Source: a virus. Taken from it: DNA of 64,000 bases. The translations under genes and the position numbers were made by a program. Location: the IMG/VR virus record IMGVR_UViG_3300025929_000015, positions 35,377-99,376 of that record; one strand, written 5' to 3'. Shown in pieces: positions 15,764-62,590 of this stretch (position 1 is its first letter; every line of letters starts with the position of its first letter). The notes beneath the pieces were generated by a model, which saw only the letters and a list, made by a program, of their open reading frames with translations, was not told the origin of the DNA and made no database searches.

Positions 15764-16747
15764 TTATTCACCCTCTTTCGGTGCTACCAATTCCAACTTG
15801 ACGCTCTCACCCTCGCGCAGCGGCGGCCGGGCCCCAGCCCGGGCATAGTCTTCGCGGACCTGTTCAGTGTCCAGGGACCGGCGACTGGAGACGGTCCAGC
15901 GCAAGACGTACGGGAAGTTCTCAAGCTGGACCTCGCCGCGTCCGCTGGTGTTGGGCCGCAGCGCGTCCAGCGCCCCCTTGGCCAGGGCTTCCTCGGCTTC
16001 GGCCTGCTTCTTGGCCTCCCGCGCGGCCGCCAGCCGCTTGGCCCATCCGGCCGCGTCCTGGTCCTCGACCAGCAGGACCGACCGCTCGTCCCGGTCGATC
16101 ACATGGCCTTCCCAGCAGGTGCCCGAGAACGGGCAGTTCCGGCATTGCGCCGAGTCGGGGGCGAAGTCGCGGGCCAGCCATTCCAGCGGGGTTTCGCGGA
16201 CCTGCTCCAGCCACTGCATCGCCTCGGTGACGGCGGCGTAGTCGAACGGCCCGGACCACATCCACGTGTTCCCGGAGTCGCGGACCAGGTAGTCCAGCTG
16301 GACCTGCTCCACGTCCAGGCCGCGGACGATCAGCGCCGCCGCATAGACTTGCACCTGCCAGAGGTGGCGGCGCGGCGGGCCGTTCAGCCGGTAGTTCGCC
16401 ACCTGCATGTCGTAGCCGACGGTCTTGACGTCCCGCAGCACCGGCCGGACGTACAGGTCGGGGTGGCCGAGCACCCCGCCGAACTGCACTTCCTCGTTGA
16501 TCACCGAGTCGGCGGGGATCAGGCCCTCGTCCCGCATCCGCAGCAGCGCCCGGTCCACCGCGTCGTGCACGGCGGTGCCGATCACCGCCTGCACGCTACC
16601 GCTGGGCTTCTCCGGCGGATACCCGTGGACGGTGTAGCCCGCCCGGCGCCGGCACCCACCGAGGTCCGATACGCCGAGGGCGCGCTGGCGGCTCCGCGGC
16701 CGTTCCCAGTCGGCCTTGAGTAGCAACTCCGCAGTAGACGGAATCAT
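15764..16747 (-). CDS. PD-(D/E)XK nuclease (RecB/Cas4-like) with Fe-S-type Cys set
   Basis: 327 aa from ATG 16747. Nuclease motifs: GTAVHDAVD, GHPDLY and RDVKTVGY (the D...xVK of the PD-(D/E)XK core). One Cys near the N-terminus (LGGCRRRAG) and CRNCPFSGTC near residue 215 make the four-Cys arrangement of Cas4/AddB iron-sulfur nucleases. With the RecT-like gene upstream it forms an exonuclease/annealase pair for homologous recombination. Confidence 0.87.
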   Translation of the reverse strand: MIPSTAELLLKADWERPRSRQRALGVSDLGGCRRRAGYTVHGYPPEKPSGSVQAVIGTAVHDAVDRALLRMRDEGLIPADSVINEEVQFGGVLGHPDLYVRPVLRDVKTVGYDMQVANYRLNGPPRRHLWQVQVYAAALIVRGLDVEQVQLDYLVRDSGNTWMWSGPFDYAAVTEAMQWLEQVRETPLEWLARDFAPDSAQCRNCPFSGTCWEGHVIDRDERSVLLVEDQDAAGWAKRLAAAREAKKQAEAEEALAKGALDALRPNTSGRGEVQLENFPYVLRWTVSSRRSLDTEQVREDYARAGARPPLREGESVKLELVAPKEGE

Positions 16748-16934
16748 GGGGCACTCCGGCCGCGCTCCCCATGGGCAGCGCCGTGAGATCCATGAGCCGG
16801 AGTGCCCCACGCGGCACCCCGTCCGTGTGATCTATGGGCCGGGCCGTAGCGTGCATGGGACGGGGACCCGCAGGCGGCACCCCGGCCGTACCCGCACTGG
16901 ATACCGTATCTCAGATGGGCCGGGGTGCCGCGGC
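16748..16934. repeat. Degenerate tandem repeats upstream of the nuclease
   Basis: The 187-bp spacer has no gene. It is built from related blocks such as GGCCGGGGTGCCGC and CCCATG motifs in both orientations, including arm pairs GGGGCACTCCGG/CCGGAGTGCCCC and a 14-nt GGCACCCC-type pair near 16873/16917. Unit length is roughly 60-70 nt. Confidence 0.55.
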
Positions 16935-23951: not shown

Positions 23952-24021
23952 CCTGCTTGCTTCCTGGCAAGCAGAACAACGCCCGGACCCCAGGGGTCCG
24001 GGCGTGTTCCTCCTGGCAGGA
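23952..24021 (-). repeat. Structured intercistronic element, copy 1
   Basis: Shared flanks (CTGGCAAGCAGA and CCTGGCAGGA on the plus strand) enclose a 12-bp stem (23980-23991 / 23993-24004). It lies between the GH16 stop and the next gene. One of seven copies with identical flanks and different stems. Confidence 0.8.
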
Positions 24022-31962: not shown

Positions 31963-32026
31963 CCTGCCTCCTGGCAAGCAGGCCCCGCCCGGGGCGATGA
32001 GCCCGGGCGGGACCTTCCTGGCAGGA
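31963..32026 (-). repeat. Structured intercistronic element, copy 2
   Basis: Shared flanks with a GCCCGGG-rich stem different in sequence from the other copies. It lies between the stop at 32028 and the zinc-knuckle pair. Confidence 0.78.
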
Positions 32027-32278: not shown

Positions 32279-33850
32279 TTACTGCCCGTTGCTCGCGGGC
32301 TTCTTGGCGAAGGTGATGTCGTATCCGTCGTCGCCGGACACCATCTTCCCCTGGGTGGCGCCGAGGGCGATGGAGACCAGCTCGGTGATCCGGGCTTCCA
32401 TCGTGGTGACATCGTGGTCGCCGTGCTGGGCGTTGTCCATCAGGTCCAGGTGGGCCTTCATGCCGAACGCGGCGTCGACCAGGTCTGCCGTGCTGATCGC
32501 GGCGGGCTGCCCGGCGTTCCTGGTGATCGAGTACCGGACGGCCCGCATGGCGGCCTCGGCGGCGAACGCGGGCAGGAAGCCCTCGTACGCCGCGGCGACC
32601 CGCACCCAGTCGATGTCCTCAGCGAGGAGGTCCCCGACGAGGACCTTGACCAGCCGCTCGTAGCCGTCCGCGTCCAGGTCCCCGACCGGGACCACCGCGT
32701 CGAGACGGCCCGGCCGGATGACCGACTTATCGAGCCTGTCTGCGAAGTTCGACGTGAACCCCGCCATCACCTCGGCTCCCTTGGCCTGGATGTTATCCAG
32801 GGTGTCCAGCACCTTGGCGATGGCCTTGCGTCCCTCGACCGCGGAGATGCCCGCGGACGCGATCACGTCCAGGTCCTCGACCCACACCACGGCCGGTGCG
32901 TACATCCGCGCCGTGATCATCGCGCCGAACGGGTCGTCGCCCGCCCGGACGAGAATGAAGGTCCACCCGTTTTCCTGCGCGATCTGCGCGGTCCGCAGCC
33001 CGGCCAGGGTCTTGCCGGTGCCGTTGGGGCCTTCGAGCAGCACGGCGCGCTTCAGCGGGATCCCCGCGTCACGCAGCGCCTCGGTGTACCGCATCGGCGC
33101 CCACAGGTTCACGTCCAGCTGCTCGAACACCTCCGGGCGGTAGATGATCTTCGCCGGGTCGATCCCCGACGTGTCCACGAACTGCGGCTCCTCGGGGTGC
33201 GCGGTGATCGCCCGCCCCTTGTAGATGGACCCGTTGACCAGCTCGTCGTCGATGACGGCGAAGAATCCCTCGATCCGCGCCTGGTGCTTCTTGGGTGCGG
33301 TCACGGAGATCTGGAAGACGGTCCCGTACTCGTCCGTCTGGGTGGCGCCGAGGACGAACGTCGCGTCCAGCAGCGAGAAGTTGACCTCCCCCCACGGAAC
33401 CTGGAGGGTCTGCCCGCCCGGGCCGGCCGGAATCGACCGGTACTGCGGCGGCTGCTTGCCGAAGAACATCGAGAACGTGGCCTTGCCGATCCCCGTGGTG
33501 CCGAAGACCCGCTTCATCGCCCGGTTGAACGCCGCCGCGCCATCCAGCGGCTTGAAGTTGAAGCGCCGGACGAACTGGAACTCGGCGTTCTGCTGGCCGT
33601 CCCAGTCGGTGAGGAACGCGACGACCTCGCCGATGTTCCCTTCCATCTGCGCGGGCAGGATGAACTGGGTTCCCGTGAAGATCAGGCTGTCCTCGGTGAC
33701 GTTCTGGCTGCCGAGCGCGTCCAGCTTCGCGAGCAGCTCGGCGGTGACCCGCTCCTGCTCGGTCGGCGGGCGGTTCGCCTTCGCGAGGGCACGCTCAGCT
33801 GCGCGGTCCATCGACGACGTGCCGGTGGCGCGCTTCCTGGTTGTAGCCAT
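32279..33850 (-). CDS. AAA+ ATPase
   Basis: 523 aa. An N-terminal ~240-residue domain precedes the AAA+ core: Walker A GPNGTGKTL, Walker B VVWVEDLD and the arginine-finger helix FADRLDKSVIRPGRLDAVV, typical of the FtsH/Cdc48-like remodelling class. No protease or membrane segment. It is followed by a vWA-like gene on its upstream side, a pairing seen in AAA+/vWA chaperone systems that assemble metal cofactors or particles. Confidence 0.85.
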   Translation of the reverse strand: MATTRKRATGTSSMDRAAERALAKANRPPTEQERVTAELLAKLDALGSQNVTEDSLIFTGTQFILPAQMEGNIGEVVAFLTDWDGQQNAEFQFVRRFNFKPLDGAAAFNRAMKRVFGTTGIGKATFSMFFGKQPPQYRSIPAGPGGQTLQVPWGEVNFSLLDATFVLGATQTDEYGTVFQISVTAPKKHQARIEGFFAVIDDELVNGSIYKGRAITAHPEEPQFVDTSGIDPAKIIYRPEVFEQLDVNLWAPMRYTEALRDAGIPLKRAVLLEGPNGTGKTLAGLRTAQIAQENGWTFILVRAGDDPFGAMITARMYAPAVVWVEDLDVIASAGISAVEGRKAIAKVLDTLDNIQAKGAEVMAGFTSNFADRLDKSVIRPGRLDAVVPVGDLDADGYERLVKVLVGDLLAEDIDWVRVAAAYEGFLPAFAAEAAMRAVRYSITRNAGQPAAISTADLVDAAFGMKAHLDLMDNAQHGDHDVTTMEARITELVSIALGATQGKMVSGDDGYDITFAKKPASNGQ

Positions 33851-33873: not shown

Positions 33874-33936
33874 CCTGCCTCCTGGCAAGCAGAAAACCGC
33901 CCGGCCCTAAAGGCCGGGCGGCATCTGCCGGTCAGG
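33874..33936 (-). repeat. Structured intercistronic element, copy 3
   Basis: Shared flanks around a 10-bp CCGCCCGGCC stem. It separates the vWA-like gene from the AAA+ gene. Confidence 0.78.
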
Positions 33937-33953
33937 ATCCCGGCGTCACCCTC

Positions 33954-51757: not shown

Positions 51758-51822
51758 CTTGCCTCCTGGCAAGAGGAAACGCCCGCACCGGAGCACGGTG
51801 CGGGCGTAACCTCACGGCAGGA
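51758..51822 (-). repeat. Structured intercistronic element, copy 4
   Basis: CTTGCCTCCTGGCAAG flank, stem CGCCCGCACCG/CGGTGCGGGCG, ending ACGGCAGGA. It separates the oxidoreductase from DUF4192. Confidence 0.76.
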
Positions 51823-53464: not shown

Positions 53465-53530
53465 CCTGCCTCCTGGCAAGCAGAGCGCGCCCGGGCCCCC
53501 GCGGGACCGGGCGCGCTCCTCCTGGCAGGA
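53465..53530 (-). repeat. Structured intercistronic element, copy 5
   Basis: CCTGCCTCCTGGCAAGCAGA flank, stem GCGCGCCCGG/CCGGGCGCGC, CCTGGCAGGA end. It precedes the 44-aa peptide gene. Confidence 0.78.
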
Positions 53531-55200: not shown

Positions 55201-55267
55201 CCTGCCTCGCTGGCAAGCAGAACGCGCCCGGACCTGTTGCAGTCCGGGCGCGTTCTCCCTGGCAGGA
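55201..55267 (-). repeat. Structured intercistronic element, copy 6
   Basis: Flanks as in the family, stem ACGCGCCCGGAC/GTCCGGGCGCGT, between the SprT-like gene and the 148-aa gene. Confidence 0.78.
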
Positions 55268-56426: not shown

Positions 56427-56683
56427 GCCGCCACCTCCTCCCACGGTTTCGGGCAGATCACCGCGACCATCTTGTGGTGCCCGGCCGCCGCGCACGCGCA
56501 CTTCGACTCCCCGTACGGGTTCTCATCGGTCCGCGGCACGAAACCGCGCCACGCCCCGCGGCAGCGGCCATGCACGTCATAGCAGACGCCCGCCGGACGG
56601 ACCGGCCCGGGCCCGCAGAAACCGCAGGTCCACGCCTCGTCGTGCCGCGGCGCCACCGCGGGCACCGCGCGCCGCGCGGTCAT
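56423..56683 (-). CDS. Cys-rich zinc protein
   Basis: 86 aa. CGFCGPGPVRPAGVC, GRCRGAW, KCACAAAGHH and a late Cys give a treble-clef-like arrangement. Coupled to its neighbours by 4-nt overlaps. Confidence 0.74.
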   Translation of the reverse strand: MTARRAVPAVAPRHDEAWTCGFCGPGPVRPAGVCYDVHGRCRGAWRGFVPRTDENPYGESKCACAAAGHHKMVAVICPKPWEEVAA

Positions 56684-56904
56684 GGCCGCACCGGCTCACC
56701 GGTGACATGCCAGTGCCACGCGTCACGCGGACCGCTGCGCTCGCGGCGCACCGCGCCGGTACCGAGCCCGTAGCGCAGCACCAGCTGCGCCCGGTACCGG
56801 TTGGCGTTGATCGCCACGGCAACCTCGCTGATCGTCGCACCCGGATGATGCGCTAGCCATGCCATCGCCAGCGCGTACCGGCCTGGTTCCATAACCTCAG
56901 TCAT
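56680..56904 (-). CDS. Winged-HTH DNA-binding protein
   Basis: 74 aa. YALAMAWLAHHPGATISEVAVAINANRYRAQLVL is a clear winged-helix start, then GLGTGAVRRERSG wing and a Trp/His end. Probably a regulator of this zinc-protein run. Confidence 0.76.
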   Translation of the reverse strand: MTEVMEPGRYALAMAWLAHHPGATISEVAVAINANRYRAQLVLRYGLGTGAVRRERSGPRDAWHWHVTGEPVRP

Positions 56905-56935
56905 CTCAATCCCTCCTTATCTGTCTCTGGGCATG

Positions 56936-56975
56936 CGAAAGCACCCCGGGCCCTGGTGGACCCGGGGTGCTTTCG
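56936..56975 (-). terminator. 15-bp perfect hairpin
   Basis: Arms 56936-56950 and 56961-56975 with a 10-nt loop, 32 nt before the start of the winged-HTH gene. It follows the nested stem structure on the transcript. Confidence 0.65.
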
Positions 56976-56990
56976 TACAGCCAGGACTAG

Positions 56991-57090
56991 GGCCGTACCC
57001 CGGAGCCGGGCGCAGCGTGGGGAAGTGCGGGAGCCCCGCGAAAGGCTCAACCGCTTCTGCGCCCGCATTCCCTCGCTCCGGGGTACGGCC
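56991..57090 (-). ncRNA. Candidate structured RNA in an intercistronic gap
   Basis: Read on the minus strand: a 16-bp perfect closing stem (57090-57075 with 57006-56991), a 9-nt one-sided bulge (57074-57066), a 9-bp second stem (57065-57057 with 57015-57007), then ~41 nt with a smaller GCGGG/CCCGC hairpin. No ORF fits. It is longer and more complex than the terminators elsewhere in the window. Confidence 0.5.
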
Positions 57091-57095
57091 GGTCT

Positions 57096-57266
57096 TCACG
57101 GCTTCCTGATGATATGGATATCCGTGACCAGCGGGACGCTGATGAGGACGTTCGCTGACCTCGGGTCCCGGTTGATGACCTGCGCGACGGCCTCACTCCC
57201 GGCGCTGGCCGGGTCTTGAGCGACCACGGCGGTTGTCACGGTGATGGTGACTTCGTACTCAGTCAT
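57096..57266 (-). CDS. 56-aa hypothetical protein
   Basis: MTEYEVTITVTTAVVAQDP with alternating hydrophobic strands and a single helix; ends ITDIHIIRKP-like. GTGA/ATGA neighbours. Probably a small beta protein. Confidence 0.65.
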   Translation of the reverse strand: MTEYEVTITVTTAVVAQDPASAGSEAVAQVINRDPRSANVLISVPLVTDIHIIRKP

Positions 57267-57484
57267 CGCAGCCACGGATTCTCGTCGTCGTCGTCTTCGT
57301 ACTCGTTCGCCAGCAGCTCCTCCAGGACCTTCTCGAACGCGATCTCCCGCAGCGCCAGCCGGTCCTGCGGGCCCAGCCGGTCCGTGTAACTGGTAGCGCC
57401 GCCGAGCGGTAGCTCCACGTTCACGACCTGGACCGCGCGGGCCACCTCGTGGCGCAGCTCGGCGACCGTACGCCGCGCGGTCAC
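57263..57484 (-). CDS. Hypothetical helical protein
   Basis: 73 aa, GTG 57484 (GTGA). RHEVARAVQVVNVELPLGG, then an acidic C-terminus (LANEYEDDDDENPWLR). Unknown. Confidence 0.68.
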   Translation of the reverse strand: MTARRTVAELRHEVARAVQVVNVELPLGGATSYTDRLGPQDRLALREIAFEKVLEELLANEYEDDDDENPWLR

Positions 57485-57648
57485 CGGTCCCCCCGGGCCC
57501 AGCGCTCCACGGAGTACAGCCACGCCCGCCGGGACCGCTTCACCCGGGAGATCCACGCCTTGAGATCCTCCAGCTCCTTGCAGAACTGCTCGTACGTCAG
57601 TTCGGTGTCCTTCCATTCCTTGCTGCCGTACTGCGGCTTACCGGCCAT
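57481..57648 (-). CDS. 55-aa charged protein
   Basis: ATG 57648. KEWKDTELTYEQFCKELEDLK helix and a basic end (RSRRAWLYSVERWARGDR). Unknown. Confidence 0.66.
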   Translation of the reverse strand: MAGKPQYGSKEWKDTELTYEQFCKELEDLKAWISRVKRSRRAWLYSVERWARGDR

Positions 57649-57826
57649 GGCAGGTCTCCTCTCCAGCCGCGGATGCACGCACCCGCGAAACTTCCCAGCA
57701 CGGACGGCGGGACCACAGGTCCCACCAGATCACCGACAGCGAGCCGAACTGCACGCCCCAGCGGTGGATCTTGAGCCTGCGGCCCCACCCGTTCAGGTGC
57801 GCCACGTAGCGGTACGGGGGCAGCAT
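57638..57826 (-). CDS. Small Trp-rich hypothetical protein
   Basis: 62 aa (ATG 57826; ATG 57835 in frame). Trp at five places, RPCWEVSRVRASAA end. Overlaps its neighbours at both ends. Confidence 0.62.
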   Translation of the reverse strand: MLPPYRYVAHLNGWGRRLKIHRWGVQFGSLSVIWWDLWSRRPCWEVSRVRASAAGEETCHGR

Positions 57827-58182: not shown

Positions 58183-58292
58183 CCTGTCCTCCTGGCAAGC
58201 AGAACGCACCCGGCCGCCGTATGGCCCATGGGATCCCCGGGGACGGAATCCGCTATGGGTATGGGCGGCCGGGTGCGCTCTTCCCGGCAGGA
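58183..58292 (-). repeat. Structured intercistronic element, copy 7
   Basis: Same flanks, stem GCACCCGGCCGCC/GGCGGCCGGGTGC, but with a much longer (~50 nt) loop that has its own CCCATGG palindrome. Confidence 0.76.
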
Positions 58293-59272: not shown

Positions 59273-59536
59273 TCAGCCTTTCTGGACCGTGACCGGAATC
59301 CCTTCCTCCGACGAGATACGCAAGGACAGTTCGCTGCCCTGCGCGATCCATCCGTCGAGCGTGAGCGTGTCCCAGTCGGGATAGTCCACAGTGAGCGTGT
59401 ATCCGCCAGCCTCACGGATCACGAAGCCCGCCTCGTCCAGCGCCGCGATCAGCTCCGCCGCCGTCTCCTCCGGGTCACAGCAATGCTGCGCCCGCTTCCA
59501 GTACGCGGTCAGCGCCGCGCGGACCCTCTCGTCCAT
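59273..59536 (-). CDS. Hypothetical protein
   Basis: 87 aa. Helix (VRAALTAYWKRAQHCC), acidic turn, then a beta-strand half (YTLTVDYPDWDTLTLDGW). No family recognised. Confidence 0.7.
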   Translation of the reverse strand: MDERVRAALTAYWKRAQHCCDPEETAAELIAALDEAGFVIREAGGYTLTVDYPDWDTLTLDGWIAQGSELSLRISSEEGIPVTVQKG

Positions 59537-59623
59537 GATTGCCTTCCTGGCCTGCCGATGCGGCAGAACCGCGGCGCGCCCCACACTGAGTTGGGGCGCC
59601 CCGCCGCTTGCCGCAGCGAGATC

Positions 59624-59734
59624 TTGCACAAACGGGCCGGACCCCGGGGCACGCACGGCGGCCACGGTCCGACCGCCCGCGGAAACCGTGTTGGGCCGGC
59701 CCCGGGGTCCGGCGGCTCATCGCATCTTGTGCAG
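59624..59734 (-). other. Nested hairpin region
   Basis: An outer 7-bp pairing (59625-59631 / 59727-59733) encloses a perfect 14-bp stem (59636-59649 / 59700-59713) and a ~50-nt loop; a separate GCGCCCCA hairpin lies at about 59577-59600. The outer arm enters the 34-aa gene. Confidence 0.45.
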
Positions 59735-59821
59735 GATGCAGGCCAAGATGACAGCGATACTAGCCAGGCTCACCGCGCAGCTGGCGACGCAGGCCGCGAT
59801 GAGGTCCAGCGCGCCGGTCAC
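59717..59821 (-). CDS. 34-aa single-span membrane peptide
   Basis: GTG start in a GTGA overlap. VASCAVSLASIAVILACIL is one hydrophobic span; short charged ends. Three Cys. Small hydrophobic phage peptide; function unknown. Confidence 0.55.
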   Translation of the reverse strand: MTGALDLIAACVASCAVSLASIAVILACILHKMR

Positions 59822-62355: not shown

Positions 62356-62470
62356 GCTGGCCACATGCCAGCGAACGGGAATCACGCGCTGGCCAGGATT
62401 GGCCAGCGTTTCGGATCACGCCATATCGCGCTTGCACGCTGGCCAGGATCAAACGGCAACGCTGGCCAGC
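62356..62470. repeat. GCTGGCCAGC-type repeat cluster
   Basis: At least four copies or half-copies of GCTGGCCA(GC) in both orientations between 62356 and 62470; further copies lie inside the two terminators that follow. No coding bias. Confidence 0.6.
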
Positions 62471-62491
62471 GTGCGAACGGGACATGCGAAA

Positions 62492-62529
62492 AATCCCCGT
62501 CCCTGGCCAGCGTGCCAGGGACGGGGATT
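62492..62529 (-). terminator. Intrinsic terminator, minus orientation
   Basis: 16-bp perfect stem (62492-62507 / 62514-62529) with a T-run following it on the minus strand (AAAAA on plus before 62493). Confidence 0.8.
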
Positions 62530-62536
62530 CCGCGAC

Positions 62537-62590
62537 GCAAAGCATCCCCCATCACTGTCCAGTGCTGGCCAGCGATGGGGGATGCTTTGC
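62537..62590 (-). terminator. 16-bp perfect hairpin after the 62599 gene
   Basis: Arms 62537-62552 and 62575-62590, first of two tandem terminators behind the 132-aa gene. Confidence 0.7.

Follow-up and report, generated by a model that had tools for sequence, protein, structure and literature searches.

In phage T7, RNase III sites in the form of irregular hairpins lie between consecutive early genes of one transcript. Terminator hairpins are mostly located at most 50 nt past stop codons, often as adjacent hairpins, and in M. tuberculosis most of them are without a clean U-tract (Gupta and Pal 2021, PMC8355165). In Cluster K mycobacteriophages, some of the non-structural genes have inverted repeats, the extended start-associated sequences (ESAS), just 5' of their starts (Pope et al. 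2011, PMC3203893).

The locus analysed here lies in a window of 64,000 nucleotides (69% G+C), which covers positions 35377-99376 of a 99,376-base virus record and contains, among others, genes for a Ku-like protein, a RecT-like annealing protein, a primase/helicase-like protein and a SprT-like protein. A 100-nt element (56991-57090) and a second hairpin, both on the minus strand, lie in the gap of 190-191 nt between a 56-aa gene and a 74-aa gene (Table 1). The three genes upstream of the element have codon scores of 0.33-0.64 per codon, indicating that they are coding, and the score of the 56-aa gene exceeds the 99% level of wrong frames. A 165-aa gene of a relative (G001) is 43% identical over its C-terminal part to the 65-aa gene, and a homologue search with the 56-aa gene found none. 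The 74-aa gene is weakly MarR-like with an E-value (0.005-0.01) that fails the cut-off. The gap had been described as free of open reading frames; it indeed has no coding signal, but two mechanical ORFs (60 aa on the minus and 87 aa on the plus strand) do span it, and both score as non-coding (-0.15 and -0.12 per codon); a hidden gene was rejected on these scores. A scan for sigma-70-type promoters in 55-60 kb gave zero matches.

The element begins 5 nt past the stop codon of the 56-aa gene, within a row of genes on the same strand. As stated in the original prediction, it has a perfect 16-bp stem (P1), a one-sided 9-nt bulge and a second stem of 9 bp (P2) that is coaxial with P1. The interior, which had been taken to be branched, is a single irregular hairpin; it carries a side loop of 11 nt on the 3' side and has no true branch. 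The next hairpin does follow 15 nt further on if the spacer (56976-56990) is counted between the perfect stems. It had been read as a terminator-like hairpin of 15 bp: the 15 perfect pairs are present, but the count rises to 18 with the apical part, and the lower stem extends to 56986, 4 nt from P1. In total, this second hairpin is built from a lower stem CUGG/CCAG, a C.C mismatch, 3 bp with G.U pairs, an A.C mismatch and the 18-bp upper stem. The tails after the element and the second hairpin are CUAGUCC and CAUGCCC, neither of which is a U-tract, and a terminator pattern scan returned zero terminator-like matches in 56900-57100. An HDV-like or pseudoknot reading, in which the bulge would pair with a loop, was rejected: the complement of the bulge forms an 11-bp alternative helix that is 6 kcal/mol worse, and no HDV model matched.

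Table 1. Coordinates of the two-hairpin locus, the flanking genes and the leader hairpins of families A and C in the window.
Feature	Position	Strand	Remarks
65-aa gene	57481..57678	-	opens the coupled three-gene row 5' of the element; codon score 0.52
73-aa gene	57263..57484	-	4-nt overlaps with both neighbours (GTGA, ATGA, read from the sequence); codon score 0.64
56-aa gene	57096..57266	-	stop codon 5 nt before the element; codon score 0.33
P1, 5' arm	57075..57090	-	GGCCGUACCCCGGAGC
5' bulge, 9 nt	57066..57074	-	GAGGGAAUG; 5' side of the minus-strand RNA
P2, 5' arm	57057..57065	-	CGGGCGCAG
Inner irregular hairpin, 4+7 bp	57027..57054	-	interior no better than shuffles
P2, 3' arm	57007..57015	-	CUGCGCCCG; flush with P1
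P1, 3' arm	56991..57006	-	GCUCCGGGGUACGGCC
Second hairpin	56924..56986	-	ends 19 nt before the start codon of the 74-aa gene
74-aa gene	56680..56904	-	3' of the element; strong ribosome-binding site AAGGAGGG; codon score 0.12, borderline
Parallel locus, 15-bp stem + 5' bulge + inner stem	59636..59713	-	3 nt past stop codon 59717-59719
Family C leader hairpin	59556..59618	-	59.1 bits with R2; 19 nt before the start at 59536
Family A leader hairpin, expanded structured loop	58190..58292	-	52.1 bits
Family A leader hairpin	55208..55267	-	66.9 bits
Family A leader hairpin	53471..53530	-	78 bits
Family A leader hairpin	51764..51822	-	51 bits
Family A leader hairpin	33880..33937	-	36.2 bits; upstream of the 523-aa gene
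Family A leader hairpin	31969..32026	-	70.9 bits
Family A leader hairpin	23962..24021	-	68.5 bits

The minus-strand fold of the element has z = -5.5, and a 251-nt region reaches a z of about -7.4 on both strands. The 68-nt interior alone has z = -1.2 on the minus and -1.6 on the plus strand, and shuffled sequence folds as well; the fold excess sits in P1 and in the second hairpin, outside this interior. P1 and P2 consist of Watson-Crick pairs only, so their stability is about the same on either strand. A helix of at least 9 bp closing flush on P1 was found in 8 of 3000 shuffles. Counting only perfect inverted repeats whose arms reach 14 bp or more, the window has 18, versus 0-1 in ten Markov simulations; the element is a real structure, yet one among many long perfect stems in this phage. 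Similarly, the bulge and the two coaxial stems had been considered unusual, and while this geometry had been read correctly, a long stem with a 5' bulge and an inner stem is also found on the same strand at 16747-16809, 16874-16931 and 59636-59713. No second copy of the element or of its interior was found in the phage, and a repeat element was rejected as an explanation.

Long intergenic hairpins are frequent in this phage and in two relatives, and many of them lie within about 20 nt past same-strand stop codons. The order of stop codon, free-form hairpin, leader hairpin, 19 nt and start codon is seen at the element locus and again at 59.7 kb. A small membrane-type protein of 34 aa is likely encoded at 59717-59821 on the minus strand (codon score 0.26); its start overlaps the upstream stop (GTGA). 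Between an 87-aa gene and a PD-(D/E)XK nuclease-like gene lie three consecutive hairpins (16747-16931, minus) that have the loop motif CAU..GAUC.CACGG in common, and the last stem holds the GGAG ribosome-binding site of the nuclease-like gene; the corresponding junction in a relative (G002) is without such hairpins. Upstream of the window, on the plus strand (G000:C1:21578-21639, in L025), a 15-bp stem GGCAGCACCCCGGCC is located about 6 nt past a plus-strand stop with a partly inverted further copy alongside, and is similar to the stem at 16874-16931. Near the right end of the record, dense nested inverted repeats with repeated CTGGCCAG sites (62382-62590) possibly constitute an origin or a multi-site binding region.

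Two families of leader hairpins, A and C, share a conserved base below an upper stem that varies in sequence but stays paired. In family A, the base consists of UCCUG, a C.C mismatch, CAGG/CUUG with a G.U pair, and an A.G mismatch; in family C, it consists of UGCGGCA/UGCCGCA, a mismatch, a 2-bp G.U-containing helix and a G.G mismatch. Permissive motif scans for these families gave many false hits, and a strict structural template together with covariance models (R1 for family A, R2 for family C) was used instead. The template was found at 14 places in three phages versus 0-3 in simulated genomes. On the transcribed strand of this phage (G000), G002 and G003, the models identified 7, 5 and 5 copies of family A, and 1, 4 and 5 copies of family C, respectively; on the opposite strand, the families score weaker or not at all. 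In the relatives, family A is located in L023 (11119-17469) and L177 (9765-15073) and family C in L018 (1240-5805) and L177 (2785-6241). The lowest-scoring copies, both in G002, have 26.8 and 23.8 bits and come near the 21 bits that unrelated loci reach. The homologue of the 523-aa gene in G002 is likewise preceded by a family A match, a weaker one of 23.8 bits.

In alignments with hand-drawn structure, 22 cells of family A are changed on both sides (shuffles 7.0 +/- 2.0) with a covariation score of 0.451 (0.186 +/- 0.030), and in family C these figures are 10 (4.4 +/- 1.6) and 0.229 (0.124 +/- 0.030); given that each structure derives from the aligned sequences themselves and that the shuffles keep relatedness, they are supportive rather than a clean significance test. 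A start codon with a ribosome-binding site follows 25 of the 27 copies at a distance of 19-59 nt, in most cases within 41 nt, and most of the 27 sit close behind a stop codon. Loop length differs widely inside both families. Apical loops expanded to 27-45 nt and internally structured are found at 58205-58277, L177 11228-11292 and L018 1254-1312. Neither family was detected in more distant phages or in annotated phages (one query each), nor, as whole hairpins, in other IMG/VR contigs carrying the exact flanking motifs. No description of either family turned up in a limited search of open-access papers, and both appear to be undescribed. The element scores at most 4.3 bits with R1 and at most 4.1 bits with R2 and is outside both. 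The second hairpin shares the layout of the strict template (lower stem, C.C mismatch, G.U-containing helix, mismatch, long upper stem); it has no significant match to R2 (at most 9.5 bits) and is a marginal match to family A, its R1 score of 18.8 bits (E 0.13) being within the noise, as unrelated loci reach 21.2 bits.

Relatives of the phage were located using the SprT-like protein and the 523-aa protein (32279-33850); host-genome relatives of the latter were sought and none were found. The comparison set consisted of G001-G003 and five more distant records. G001 and G002 give identical matches and are apparently a single phage; their 523-aa protein has 78% identity to that of the phage analysed here, compared with 52% for G003. 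A homologue of the element, searched for by DNA, P1 pattern or flanking proteins, was not found in G001-G003, the five more distant relatives, annotated phages or plasmids; conservation in relatives, the lack of which the original prediction had named as counting against it, was thus detected neither in G001-G003 nor in the five more distant relatives. Covarying homologues of the kind that mark a conserved non-coding RNA were likewise found in none of the relatives or the phage and plasmid records. At the gathering threshold, Rfam matched only a tRNA in the whole window and nothing in the element, and a permissive Rfam search on the element gave sub-threshold matches only, mostly to microRNA models and far under the threshold. 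In G001, the neighbourhood is partly kept with a different hairpin, of family C, after the matching gene, and in G003 the gene neighbourhood is rearranged. The absent conservation fits a replaceable hairpin in which stability matters more than sequence.

Combining these data, we suggest, and put the chances at about even, that the two adjacent minus-strand hairpins punctuate the border of two gene groups in an actinophage operon. In this model, the gene row 57678-57096 would have the element as its 3'-end hairpin, which would fold once the RNA polymerase has moved on and the ribosome has come to a halt. The element would act as a U-less, terminator-type barrier, causing the polymerase to pause or in part to terminate, either at this site or at the second hairpin, and would leave a 3' end that is resistant to exonuclease, in that way protecting the upstream mRNA. 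The second hairpin would be the leader hairpin of the 74-aa gene, shielding the 5' end of a read-through or processed mRNA and insulating the strong ribosome-binding site from upstream sequence. The position 5 nt past a stop codon and the 15-nt spacer between the perfect stems are those of a U-less terminator cluster. There is no U run as in a U-tract intrinsic terminator, and the 16-bp first stem and the 68-nt interior exceed typical terminators, which argues against punctuation.

With no promoter match separating the hairpins from the 74-aa gene, full termination would silence this gene; the lack of a U-tract and of such a promoter match therefore argue against complete termination and make RNase III-type processing the main rival. 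Here, P1 and P2 would stack into a near-continuous duplex of about 25 bp that could be cut by host RNase III to separate the mRNAs of the two gene groups. The total duplex length, the intergenic position and the lack of a promoter match between the units would fit, and in all three phages the intergenic hairpins of families A and C combine mismatches with a lower stem and a long upper stem. We nevertheless consider such a processing site rather unlikely, since the element shares neither a sequence nor a mismatch signature of processing sites and a search of the phage record for an RNase III gene was negative, so that the host enzyme would be needed. The strong fold (z -5.5), the 190-nt gap without coding signal and the low frequency of a closing P2 helix by chance (8/3000) could also be explained by a discrete regulatory or small non-coding RNA, e.g. 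an sRNA derived from the 3'-UTR and ending at the second hairpin. A structured minus-strand RNA at the element is plausible; the proposal that it is a regulatory or small non-coding RNA has not found support. The element follows a stop codon in a same-strand row, neither covariation nor a real Rfam match was found for it, and the unexceptional interior, the lack of a promoter match in 55-60 kb and the lack of a homologue make a discrete RNA improbable.

Two further explanations have an even smaller claim. A DNA-level element, such as a cruciform or a site bound by a phage protein, is very unlikely: its placement tracks stop codons and gene direction, it is without a repeat elsewhere, and families A and C, which are comparable to it, retain G.U pairs and mismatches and have far higher scores on the strand that is transcribed, even if P1 and P2 are all Watson-Crick and about equally stable on both strands and many perfect inverted repeats are present in the window. 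Least credible is an attenuation switch in which the interior would toggle between P2 and an 11-bp helix (GGGAAUGCGGG / CCCGCA-C-UUCCC) and control termination at the second hairpin. The alternative fold exists, with a 5' strand that shares nucleotides with the bulge and P2, but it has -62.8 kcal/mol versus -68.8 kcal/mol for the P2 fold, a difference that favours a single state. P1 is retained in both folds, so the second hairpin would be unaffected by the switch, and evidence for a leader peptide or a ligand is absent.

A broader scenario, to which we give only a small chance, is that the element and its neighbour are part of a dedicated two-part RNA punctuation system of the phage group. 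Such a system would consist of a free-form 3' hairpin behind the stop codon and a leader hairpin whose base has conserved mismatches and wobble pairs, and a factor from the phage or the host, either a processing enzyme or an antitermination-like complex, would read it to set the expression of each gene group. Families A and C raise the question whether the conserved base controls termination, RNA processing or translation in large actinophages, and because they are multi-copy, covarying, strand-biased and common to three related phages, this question is testable.

Among known systems, the hairpin upstream of gene 27 in Streptomyces phage Nesbitt (MH001457) has 85% identity over 39 nt to part of the second hairpin (E-value 0.02); it lies about 30 nt before the nearest gene end, in an orientation opposite to the annotated genes, and the likeness is probably convergence of G+C-rich stems. 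With the RNase III sites of phage T7, the locus shares irregular hairpins in an intergenic position; unlike in T7, the element is without a shared internal-loop signature, and processing is putative. Families A and C and the second hairpin resemble the Cluster K ESAS (PMC3203893) in their position before start codons, whereas A and C have a conserved base, an upper stem that varies by compensatory change and no 13-bp SAS motif. This motif (GGGATAGGAGCCC) has two 2-mismatch matches in 64 kb, where 2.75 are expected, and none at this locus. The hairpin clusters described in PMC8355165 and the locus have in common the position directly behind a stop codon, a spacing of about 15 nt between the two hairpins, a G+C-rich genome and the lack of a U-tract; the element differs by its first stem of 16 bp (2-10 bp in those clusters), by its 68-nt structured interior, and in that we infer its termination. 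Our best reading of the element is that it is a further gene-end hairpin, a known kind of feature, and it cautions that strong, oddly shaped intergenic folds in G+C-rich phages can be gene-end punctuation rather than new RNAs.
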